Assembly: GCA_024648695.1 (NCBI GenBank)
Contig: JACAVV010000005.1
Location: forward strand, 310,001-374,000
Direction: 5' to 3'
Length of the DNA: 64,000 bases
DNA from: Nitrospina sp.
GTDB taxonomy: Bacteria; Nitrospinota; Nitrospinia; Nitrospinales; JACRGP01
The first letter of the stretch is position 1. Every line of letters begins with the position of its first letter. The notes beneath the pieces were generated by a model. That model was not told where the DNA came from. It made no database searches and saw only the letters and a list, made by a program, of their open reading frames with translations. Below are positions 37,288-45,612 of the stretch, in pieces. A program made the translations under genes and the position numbers.

Positions 37288-38430
37288 CTAATCTTCCCTG
37301 AAAGCTGTTATGGTCATGGTTTGATTGTGTAAATTGCAGGGTTCGAGAGGACTGAAATGGGCGATTTCTCCATAGGAATAAAATCCCGCCAAAACGGTTT
37401 TTTCTCCAAAAATATCGCGAATCACTTCAGTTTCTTCCTCAATACGCTGCTTCATAATAATTTTTCTGCCCATACAACTGATAAGGATTGCCAAGTCGGG
37501 CGTTTGTTCCGCCATGTTGTCAAAAGAGGTTTGCGCGGCTTGCAATGCACCGTCTACCAGTTTATTGATATTGGTCTTCATCAAACGGGCGTACCCTCCT
37601 TCAAACATATCACCCGCAAAGGTCATGGAATTTTCCTGTTCATTGATCGATAAAATCGTTCGCACAACAGGGGACTCCGATCCGTCGGTCCGGAAACTCA
37701 GAGGAAATAAAAACAGGTTGGTGGCAAGGTCCCGGGACAGTTCTTCGCCCAAATATTCTTTGTACAGATCCAATGCGGAACGACCATCGAGTTCGTAAAG
37801 GATATTGCCGTCGGCACGAGTGATTTTTCTTTCGGGACCAAATGGAGAGAATCCACCCATAGAACCAAAGCTGATTTTTAAATGAGAGCCATAAAACCCT
37901 ACTACGGAAATAAGCTCTTTTTTCGGAATGTCCCCAGAACAGATCAAGGTTTCTTCAAAACGATCCGCGTCTCCTGCAAGCCCCCCTGTAATTCCGACAT
38001 TTTTATCGAGATGACGCGACAACCCTTCAACCAATCTACTGCCATTGACTTTCAATCCGTCCGACAAAACAAAAACGTGTTGTAACTCATTCGGAATCAA
38101 AGCCTGCGCCAACTCTTTTCCTGCTGTAAAGCTGTCTTTACCTCCGGCTAAATCGACGGAAGCCATTTTAATAAAGGTTTTATCAAAGTAAACAGCGGTG
38201 GCAACGAGGGATTCGTCCAGGACATGGGTGTCGCAAATTTCTCCAGAGGTGGAGCACCCGATTTTATAGGCGGAAGGGTAACGCTTGGACAAAAAATCAA
38301 ACAGATCCTTGTAGCCCATAACAAACCGGTTGGCAAAGATAAAAATTAATTGCGCCTGTTCATTTGGAAAATCGTCAGATAAGGAGGACCAACCGTTTTC
38401 TTTGGACCATATGACTTGTTCTACTTTCAT
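37288..38430 (-). CDS. FIST domain sensory protein
   Basis: Protein of 380 residues with FIST_N (about 20-220: KIGCSTSGEICDTHVLD, VFVLSDGLKVNGSRLVEGL, VGITGGLAGDADRF) and FIST_C (about 225-370: LYKEYLGEEL, AILISCMGRKIIM, LAGFYSYGEIAHF). FIST proteins are predicted intracellular small-ligand sensors, possibly for amino acids, that work with signalling enzymes. Here a histidine kinase starts 3 bp after its stop, so the two are almost certainly co-translated as a sensor-kinase pair. Length is normal for the family. Confidence 0.9.
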   Translation of the reverse strand: MKVEQVIWSKENGWSSLSDDFPNEQAQLIFIFANRFVMGYKDLFDFLSKRYPSAYKIGCSTSGEICDTHVLDESLVATAVYFDKTFIKMASVDLAGGKDSFTAGKELAQALIPNELQHVFVLSDGLKVNGSRLVEGLSRHLDKNVGITGGLAGDADRFEETLICSGDIPKKELISVVGFYGSHLKISFGSMGGFSPFGPERKITRADGNILYELDGRSALDLYKEYLGEELSRDLATNLFLFPLSFRTDGSESPVVRTILSINEQENSMTFAGDMFEGGYARLMKTNINKLVDGALQAAQTSFDNMAEQTPDLAILISCMGRKIIMKQRIEEETEVIRDIFGEKTVLAGFYSYGEIAHFSPLEPCNLHNQTMTITAFRED

Positions 38431-39149: not shown

Positions 39150-41737
<2,588 letters not shown>

Positions 41738-41802: not shown

Positions 41803-42579
41803 TCACAAATCAATCAAGCCCTCCAAAGGACTGCTGGCGGTTGCGTATAATTTTTTAGGGATGCGACCCGCTTCGTATCCGAGCCGACCCGATTCCACGG
41901 CCATCTTCATAGCTTGTGCCATTTTAATGGGATCTTTAGCGCAGGCGATAGCGGTGTTCATTAAAATTCCGTCGACACCCATTTCCATTGCACGGCTGGC
42001 GTCGGAAGGCGTTCCTACACCTGCATCGATGATCACAGGCACCGTCACCGCCTCCTGGATGAGCCGAATGTTGTAAGGATTGCGAATGCCCAGTCCGGAC
42101 CCAATAGGCGCGGCCAAAGGCATCACCGCGGCACACCCGACTTGTTCGAGTTTTTTGCAAAGCACCACGTCGTCTGTGCAGTAGGGTAAAACCGTGAATC
42201 CATCCTTCACCAAAATGTCCGAAGCTTCCAGGGTGGCTTCGTTGTCGGGAAACAAAGTTTTCTCGTCGCCGATCACTTCCACCTTGACCAAATCGCCCAG
42301 ACCCGCTTCCCGTGCCAGTTGACAGGTCATCACAGCTTCCTTAACGCTGTAGCATCCTGCTGTATTGGGCAAGAAGGTGTATTTATCCGGATCGATAAAG
42401 TTGAGAATCGATTCCTTGGTTTTATCCAGTTCGATTCTGCGGACCGCCACCGTCACCACTTCGGCTCCGGATACAGCAATGGCTTCTCTGGTTTCTTCAA
42501 ATGATTTGTATTTTCCCGTACCTACGATGAGACGGGACTTAAAAGACCGGTTTCCAACTTTTAAATAACTGCCTTCCAT
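41803..42579 (-). CDS. thiG: Thiazole synthase ThiG
   Basis: TIM-barrel enzyme of 258 residues that builds the thiazole phosphate ring from deoxyxylulose phosphate, dehydroglycine and the ThiS thiocarboxylate. The Schiff-base Lys is in [12 protein letters not shown]; other landmarks are [39 protein letters not shown] and [17 protein letters not shown]. It is 77 bp downstream of thiS, its sulfur carrier partner. No thiH or thiO (dehydroglycine source) and no thiF are in the window. Confidence 0.96.
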
Positions 42580-42655: not shown

Positions 42656-42862
42656 TTACCCGGAGCCCCCTCCTACGGCGTGAACGATTTCTATCGTATC
42701 GCCATCCTTTATGGATGTGGTTGCGAACTGGGTTCTGGGAACGATCTCAGAGTTCAGGGCAATTGCAATATGCGATTCCGAAATATCCAACTCCTTGAGT
42801 AATTCGATCAGGTTCTGGCTTGTGGCGATTTCTTTTTCTTTGCCATTTATTGTTAATTTCAA
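42656..42862 (-). CDS. thiS: Sulfur carrier protein ThiS with an extended C-terminus
   Basis: Ubiquitin-like sulfur carrier of 68 residues (LKLTINGKEKEIA ... GDTIEIVHAVGGGSG). The track ORF starts at 42982 inside the riboswitch terminator, but a TTG at 42862 follows AGGAGG by 5 nt and gives the normal ThiS length. ThiS is adenylated and thiocarboxylated on a C-terminal Gly-Gly. Here Ser-Gly follows the glycines, so the protein would need trimming or would be activated on the last Gly; this is inferred. It is first gene of the thiamine operon. Confidence 0.88.
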   Translation of the reverse strand: MKLTINGKEKEIATSQNLIELLKELDISESHIAIALNSEIVPRTQFATTSIKDGDTIEIVHAVGGGSG

Positions 42863-43001: not shown

Positions 43002-43014
43002 CAATAGAGTCATC

Positions 43015-43097
43015 GCTCGCTTCCCTGCGCTGGTATTAGCCAGATCAGGTTCAAAGGGTTGTCCAATGGACTCTCAGTTTGGTAACACCCCCAGCGG
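43015..43097 (-). ncRNA. TPP riboswitch (THI element)
   Basis: Minus-strand sequence has the conserved blocks GGGGGTG, CTGAGA, ACCCTTTGAACCTGATCTGG, TAATACCAGCGCAGGGAAGC in the correct order. It controls the thiS-thiG-thiE-thiC operon, repressing it when thiamine pyrophosphate is abundant, through the terminator that follows. Confidence 0.95.
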
Positions 43098-43169
43098 AAT
43101 AAGTTTTAGGTTACATCAAATTTAAAACCAGTCAAGTAGAAGTTCAACTTTAATAAAAGGAACCATCGA

Positions 43170-44360: not shown

Positions 44361-44643
44361 GTATCCCGGCACACTCACCCCAAATTTTGAGATTGACCTG
44401 AATTTGCCAATCATTTTATAATTCATTGCCTGAATCTCTTATCTGCAATTTCCTGATTGATTTGTCGTAGGCCAGCAGAAATAGAACATGCGGACCCTCG
44501 GCCGGCAGAAACATGTGGCGAGAATGGTTTGGGAACGAACGCAAATTAAGTGATGCTCAATGAGTTCATACGCGTGGCCAATTTTATCTGCCGCAGACCC
44601 CTCAATATCCCCATTAACTTTTTATTTTCCTAAGGAAACCCGA

Positions 44644-45612
44644 ATGATGATTACCGCCATCGAAAACCTGGATCACGTGATAGAACACGAATGGAACTAT
44701 CTTGATTCGCAAAAGAATGAATGGAGCCTGTTGACGGGCGATCAGGATATGGAAGTTTTGGAGCATGTACTCCGTTGCATTCTTCACATGGGGATTACCG
44801 ACAAAATGCCGCAGGAATTCCAGGAATGCCTGAAGGTTCAAAATCCTGATGGCGGATGGTCAAAAATATCGAACACCAATCAGACATCAATCTGGATCAC
44901 CACCTTCGTGGGTCTGAAATTGAGCCGTGGAAACCTTATTATTAAAGACCCTGCTATTTCAGCCGCTGTGGACAAAACGCTGGAGTATATTCTCAATTCG
45001 CAGGAGGAAGACGGGCATTGGACCGATCCGGAATGGTCGCATCTCGACACCACCTGTTCGGTGACATGTTTTCTCACGATCTACCAGGTAACACGAGACA
45101 AACAGGATGATGAGCGCATCAATAAAGCCCGTCGACGTGGCTTCGATTATATTATGTCCTGGCACCGCGAGTCCGGCTTGTGGAAAGACAACGGGTTCCA
45201 TCCCTCGGGTATCGAAACCACTGCGCACTTGATGCAATACACTCTGGTACCGGCCTACTTTATGGATAAAATCGAATTTGCCGAAAAAGCCTGTTTGGAT
45301 GCGGCCGAAAGTCTGGTCGACGAGCAAGCGGAAAACGGGTCCTGGGATAATGAAAACATGGACCACACAATGGACGCGTGCAGAAACCTGATGCTGGTCT
45401 CGGATATTTTCAATCAGAAAGAAAAATACATGCCGGTGATAGAGAAGGGCGTGCAATGGCTCACCAAAAACAAAAATGAGAGCGGGTGGGGAGATTTTAT
45501 CGACGAGCCCAGCAATGTCGAACGCACCGCCGACGGACTGGACACATTGTTGAAATTCCGCCGGTATTGTTCCAACCAACCGATGTCCGATTTCTGGGCT
45601 TATACGAAATGA
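44644..45612 (+). CDS. Terpene-cyclase-like alpha/alpha-toroid repeat protein
   Basis: Protein of about 322 residues. It has squalene-hopene-cyclase/prenyltransferase-type repeats: QNPDGGWS, QEEDGHWTDPEW, AENGSWD, ESGWGDF. Length is about half of a real squalene-hopene cyclase and no DXDD cyclisation motif is seen, so it is probably not a cyclase; it may be a binding toroid like other short members. The ORF can start at 44560, but the ATG at 44644 has AAGGA 7-8 nt upstream and avoids an unsupported extension. It lies 61 bp before a nucleotidyltransferase gene on the same strand; the two may act together. Confidence 0.6.
   Translation: MMITAIENLDHVIEHEWNYLDSQKNEWSLLTGDQDMEVLEHVLRCILHMGITDKMPQEFQECLKVQNPDGGWSKISNTNQTSIWITTFVGLKLSRGNLIIKDPAISAAVDKTLEYILNSQEEDGHWTDPEWSHLDTTCSVTCFLTIYQVTRDKQDDERINKARRRGFDYIMSWHRESGLWKDNGFHPSGIETTAHLMQYTLVPAYFMDKIEFAEKACLDAAESLVDEQAENGSWDNENMDHTMDACRNLMLVSDIFNQKEKYMPVIEKGVQWLTKNKNESGWGDFIDEPSNVERTADGLDTLLKFRRYCSNQPMSDFWAYTK

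Follow-up and report, generated by a model that had tools for sequence, protein, structure and literature searches.

The thi operon and the C-terminal end of ThiS

The 64,000-nucleotide stretch of Nitrospina sp. DNA analyzed here (the window) carries a thiamin biosynthesis operon on the minus strand, in which a TPP riboswitch lies upstream of thiS, and thiG, thiE and thiC lie downstream of it, placing the carrier in the context expected for a thiamin ThiS:

43005..43102, minus strand: TPP riboswitch (RF00059) heading the thi operon; 70.9 bits, gathering threshold 54.3
42656..42862, minus strand: thiS, sulfur carrier protein of 68 aa with a TTG start and the end HAVGGGSG; TIGR01683
42665..42673, minus strand: Gly-Gly-Gly of thiS, the functional carrier end, with predicted cleavage directly after it; invariant in the ThiS proteins read from the order
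42659..42664, minus strand: thiS codons TCC GGG, which encode the Ser-Gly tail behind Gly-Gly-Gly; outside the ThiS model and hypervariable in relatives
41803..42579, minus strand: thiG, thiazole synthase, the client of ThiS; PF05690, 374.8 bits
41102..41737, minus strand: thiE, thiamine phosphate synthase; TIGR00693, 175.1 bits, above cut-off
39150..41105, minus strand: thiC, phosphomethylpyrimidine synthase; TIGR00190, 715 bits, above cut-off

Two further genes were noted around the operon: a protein with FIST N and C domains (window positions 37288-38430), downstream on the same strand, and a squalene-hopene-cyclase/TED-like repeat protein of unassigned role (44560-45612).

The thiS gene starts with TTG at 42860-42862, with the Shine-Dalgarno sequence AGGAGG 4 nt upstream, and encodes the protein MKLTING...DTIEIVHAVGGGSG. 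At its other end, the reverse strand of positions 42656-42676 reads GTA GGA GGG GGC TCC GGG TAA, that is, V-G-G-G-S-G-stop. The protein passed the TIGR01683 equivalog model for ThiS (79.5 bits, curated cut-off 37.45), and the last position of the model (64 of 64) aligned to residue 66, the third glycine; Ser67-Gly68 therefore fall outside the family model and represent an addition. The preliminary description of this DNA had counted two extra residues, a count that holds if GGG is regarded as the end, as it is in many ThiS proteins (e.g., B. subtilis, 1TYG). It had also stated that single-base shifts in the G-run do not produce a normal end, and this is correct: shifts of +1, -1, +2 and -2 give GGGLRVSRFR, GGAPGKPFQ... 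and the like, and never a plain GG or GGG.

Sulfur carriers, JAMM protease and E1 enzymes in the genome

The genome (4.2 Mb, 97% complete, a draft assembly of 56 contigs) was searched for proteins of the ThiS/MoaD family, which identified a single ThiS and three further carriers; the second, standard ThiS considered in the preliminary description was not found by this search. The CysO-like carrier ends in IAGG-LV and is encoded on contig C20 in the cluster cysK/M - thrC-like - cysO-like - moeB - cysM-like, where its gene adjoins a cysteine-synthase-like gene and an E1 gene, as in a CysO pathway. MoaD, encoded between moaC and moaE, ends in SGG-LA. Three of the four carriers (ThiS, CysO-like and MoaD) are capped, each by two residues. 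The fourth is a small protein with a plain SGG end, encoded on contig C26 (L004/L009) next to a BNR-repeat/YCF48-like gene; plain-SGG carriers recur in several relatives.

Exactly one Prok-JAB (JAMM) protein, of 153 aa, is encoded in the genome:

contig C2:29985-30359 (outside the window): JAMM metalloprotease; PF14464, 72.5 bits

Its characteristic residues (E / HSHP / SxxD) are intact, appearing as PFECCG, FYHSHP and FSEED, and the motif is present in all 49 Nitrospinota copies examined. None of the named equivalog cut-offs for JAMM proteins was passed, the best match being desampylase (70.6 bits, 130 needed); the nearest solved structures by sequence are 2KCQ and 2KKS. The gene is flanked on C2 by mreB, a zinc-ribbon-like gene and a 2Fe-2S ferredoxin gene. 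In Nitrospinota (L008, L039, L043), the JAMM gene retains mreB, zinc-ribbon-like, 2Fe-2S ferredoxin and thioredoxin-like neighbors, with no obvious carrier partner among them. Linkage of carrier and protease genes, which is usual and not obligatory, was not found in this genome: JAMM lies on C2, thiS lies on C1, and no carrier gene is linked to JAMM. The genome search for JAMM and ThiF proteins proposed in the preliminary description yielded, besides the single JAMM, two MoeB/ThiF-type E1 enzymes. One of them is encoded in the CysO cluster, the other carries a C-terminal rhodanese domain, and neither gene lies beside thiS. The presence of a single Prok-JAB protein with an intact motif on another contig supports the earlier suggestion that an unlinked protease of the JAMM type may exist.

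Carrier ends and JAMM across the order

The end of ThiS was determined in 49 genomes of the order, in each case from a thiG-linked gene; the closest named ThiS loci in public genomes belong to Nitrospinota/Nitrospinaceae. In 40 of the 49 genomes, ThiS is tailed behind an invariant GGG, with tails of 1-11 residues and variable sequence, while the preceding VHAVGGG is invariant in the ThiS proteins read. All genomes of families f1, f2 and f4 are tailed except one f2 genome, and all of family f3 end in plain GGG. The tails are V (14 genomes), I (13) and L (5), with one each of S, T, SG, TR, CR, CGFE, CGSIN and TAGEAPEPDKN. Close pairs of genomes keep HAVGGG constant and differ behind it by codons that are shifted or missing: a deletion with a change of frame separates TR from TAGEAPEPDKN, and the other pairs are CGFE versus CGSIN and no tail versus S. 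Since the relatives share the tailed state, the tail is judged to be more than chance. The situation in which relatives would have a plain GG and the present end would be an assembly error did not occur, and the tailed end of ThiS is confirmed as real.

Tails are also present on the other carriers of the order, namely on 26 of 26 CysO-like proteins and on 26 of 26 MoaD proteins read, family f3 included. Over the three carriers, 92 of 92 tails begin with A, C, I, L, M, S, T or V, in rows that are related and not independent; later positions are free, with R, H, K, Q, W and E among their residues. A protease with a P1' preference would be expected to leave such a restriction at the first residue, and stop-codon loss alone would not.

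JAMM was found in all genomes of the order except a few incomplete ones. The three tailed genomes without it are metagenome-assembled genomes (MAGs) of 72-83% completeness, and the values of (1 - completeness) summed over the 40 tailed genomes predict ~5 misses. Tracking of the ThiS tail with JAMM presence within the order was ruled out, as the plain-ThiS sister family f3 has JAMM equally. This family would still need JAMM for MoaD and CysO, and its equal possession of the protease implies that the primary JAMM client may be CysO.

In the same class, two loci (L236/L238) contain the operon cysK - ThiS-like carrier ending in GGG-NF - metY-like - moeB - JAMM fused to a sulfite-reductase/ferredoxin-like part - tusA-like, a sulfur-assimilation cluster with a linked protease. 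A further candidate for a tailed thiamin ThiS, locus G065, was rejected as it is located in a cysteine/methionine operon.

ThiS-ThiG fusions and JAMM in Pseudomonadota

For comparison outside the phylum, 120 Pseudomonadota genomes were sampled evenly; 101 of them have ThiS, the ends were read in 84, and PF14464 was searched in 80. The 84 ends comprise 27 one-frame fusions of the type ThiS-GGG-linker-ThiG, presumably the proteins named 'bifunctional sulfur carrier protein/thiazole synthase', two tailed ThiS proteins (GGGAR and GGGSLF, both thiG-linked) and 55 plain ends. The linker after GGG is short and variable in the 27 fusion loci (L267-L269, L274-L276, L279, L287, L291-L293, L295, L296, L372-L385). 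A strong JAMM (PF14464, E-value of 5e-18 or better) was found in all 27 fusion genomes and in both tailed genomes, and 26 of 51 plain-ended genomes have a strong JAMM at E <1e-12. Weak Prok-JAB matches of ~230-290 aa in gammaproteobacteria, which from their length and score are probably RadC-like, were left out of this count. At least two JAMM subtypes are present in Pseudomonadota (L342-L371), with ECVG in most fusion and tailed genomes and EACG in a plain-ThiS clade.

In a quick ThiG tree, whose long branches are placed unsurely, one supported group (SH-aLRT 95) unites the fusions with the two tailed genomes. Two plain-ended genomes (L273, L290) are nested in the fusion clade, and both are without JAMM. 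When Nitrospinota and Pseudomonadota were pooled with 34 further plain genomes of other groups, JAMM was present in 66 of 69 genomes with a non-terminal GG versus 37 of 94 plain genomes (Fisher p ~8e-15, kinship ignored). Only ~5 changes of the end state occur on the ThiG tree, which leaves the correlation with few independent events behind it, and an independent-pairs test on this tree gave three usable, well-supported pairs, too few to reach significance. The association between JAMM and a non-terminal GG is consistent in direction over a small number of independent events.

Proposed maturation pathway and alternative explanations

E1 enzymes adenylate the terminal glycine of ThiS, MoaD and CysO, which are next thiocarboxylated (PMC3227635), and carriers with capped ends typically require a protease such as QbsD (PMC6006322). 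A MoaD-MoaE fusion needs a cut after GG to work, by a protease that was not identified in that study (PMC4326299). From these precedents we infer a pathway in which the JAMM cut precedes E1 loading and use by ThiG. We consider it probable for the present organism; what was observed directly is that tails exist and how they are distributed, that the protease motif is intact, and that JAMM and a non-terminal GG co-occur. ThiS would be synthesized as a capped precursor, and the stand-alone JAMM on C2 would cut the tail off after the conserved Gly-Gly-Gly, the cut, its site and its order relative to sulfuration all being predictions. One of the two MoeB-type E1 enzymes would then adenylate and thiocarboxylate the freed glycine, and ThiG would take the sulfur from ThiS to build the thiazole. 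As the genome has only one JAMM, the same enzyme probably uncaps the CysO-like carrier (GG-LV) and MoaD (GG-LA) too, so that one enzyme would serve three sulfur pathways.

Among the alternatives, the one that survives best, and which we nevertheless regard as unlikely, assigns removal of the ThiS tail to another, non-specific protease or carboxypeptidase and devotes JAMM to CysO, either for tail removal or, as in Mec+, for release of cysteine from CysO-cysteine. Hydrolysis of CysO-cysteine by Mec+ is documented (PMC3227635), and the retention of JAMM alongside capped CysO and MoaD in the plain-ThiS sister family is in line with such a division of labor; however, JAMM is associated with a non-terminal GG also in Pseudomonadota, where the thiamin ThiS itself is fused or tailed, and a ThiS-ThiG fusion cannot be opened by a carboxypeptidase. 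Still less probable is a tolerated tail: the stop codon would have drifted neutrally, and ThiS would function without being cut or be activated in an unusual way. The short and variable tails, with single codons gained or lost between sister genomes, would fit such drift, but E1 enzymes adenylate the carboxylate of a terminal glycine, changes at the GG end of MoaD abolish its activity, and fused MoaD must be cut (PMC4326299). Furthermore, tails were found in only 2 of 57 unfused Pseudomonadota ThiS proteins, both accompanied by JAMM, and many tails begin with A, I, T, V or M, whose codons cannot be reached from a stop codon by one mutation. The G-rich run at the ThiS end and the draft state of the assembly could speak for a decayed ThiS or for an error of sequencing or assembly. 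The probability of this is negligible, since a normal end cannot be obtained by gaining or losing 1-2 bases in the run, the tailed state is common to relatives, and the operon, ribosome-binding site and riboswitch are intact.

Extending the JAMM-dependent pathway beyond ThiS, we lean slightly toward a broader proposal, in which the single Nitrospinota JAMM would generally mature the ubiquitin-like carriers that supply sulfur for vitamin B1, molybdenum cofactor and cysteine, the same enzyme type would open the Pseudomonadota ThiS-ThiG fusions, and uncapping could act as a shared valve of sulfur flow. The data favor the part on general maturation; the valve is speculation.

Comparison with known systems

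Capped carriers accompanied by a JAMM are already known from the QbsE/QbsD system of thioquinolobactin and the PtmS2-PtmS3/PtmS1 system of thioplatensimycin, in which, as in the present case, a ThiS/MoaD-fold carrier extends beyond GG by a few residues, one or two in those systems (C, MV), and the genome encodes a JAMM (PMC6006322). Those systems belong to secondary metabolism and their genes are often linked, whereas here the carrier is a thiG-linked thiamin ThiS, the JAMM is unlinked, and three carriers of primary metabolism are capped. The CysO/Mec+/MoeZR system of Mycobacterium resembles the present genome in a CysO-like carrier gene among cysteine/threonine synthase-like genes and moeB, and in a JAMM in the genome (PMC3227635). 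Mec+ is described as freeing cysteine from CysO-cysteine, whereas here CysO, MoaD and ThiS are all tailed. The sulfur-assimilation clusters in row 4e of Iyer et al. 2006 (PMC1779556), with a tailed ThiS-like carrier, JAMM, E1 and TusA/SirA, are close to the GGG-NF operon of the same class. The carrier of the latter, unlike the ThiS studied here, is not a thiamin ThiS, and its JAMM gene is linked to that of the carrier and encodes a fusion with a sulfite-reductase-like part. We take the row 4e clusters to be of the HcyS-HcyD type.

In ThiS-ThiG fusions and in MoaX (MoaD-MoaE; PMC4326299), as in the present ThiS, GG(G) is not terminal and a cut is needed before sulfuration. A whole enzyme follows GG in those fusions, in contrast to the two-residue cap found here. 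The precursors of ubiquitin, SUMO and NEDD8 have a ubiquitin fold and a short variable tail after GG, which is removed before E1 activation. They resemble the present ThiS in the tail after GG and differ from it in their proteases and in their use, which is protein tagging. The structures 2K5P/3CWI, annotated as ThiS with GGGK before an LEHHHHHH tag, were set aside as known examples of a tailed thiamin ThiS, as the lysine may come from the construct and the carrier may serve a different pathway.

The usual description of thiamin ThiS has it end in a Gly-Gly that is ready for use. In a search of open-licence papers, neither a capped thiamin ThiS nor the way in which ThiS-ThiG fusions are cut was found described. 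Judging from the papers searched, the capped thiamin ThiS, the pattern of three capped carriers and the link of JAMM to ThiS-ThiG fusions appear to be undescribed. The capping of MoaD and of the CysO-like carrier, the JAMM of the plain-ThiS family and the association of JAMM with the Pseudomonadota fusions were not foreseen in the preliminary description.

If ThiS is capped in most of the order and buried in fusions in many Pseudomonadota, a proteolytic step joins their vitamin B1 pathway, in a bacterial metabolic parallel to the processing of SUMO and NEDD8 precursors. JAMM is a concrete candidate for freeing the sulfur-carrying end of ThiS-ThiG fusions, and, if the proposed pathway is true, a protease commonly annotated as a generic metallopeptidase would belong to the vitamin B1 pathway of those bacteria.
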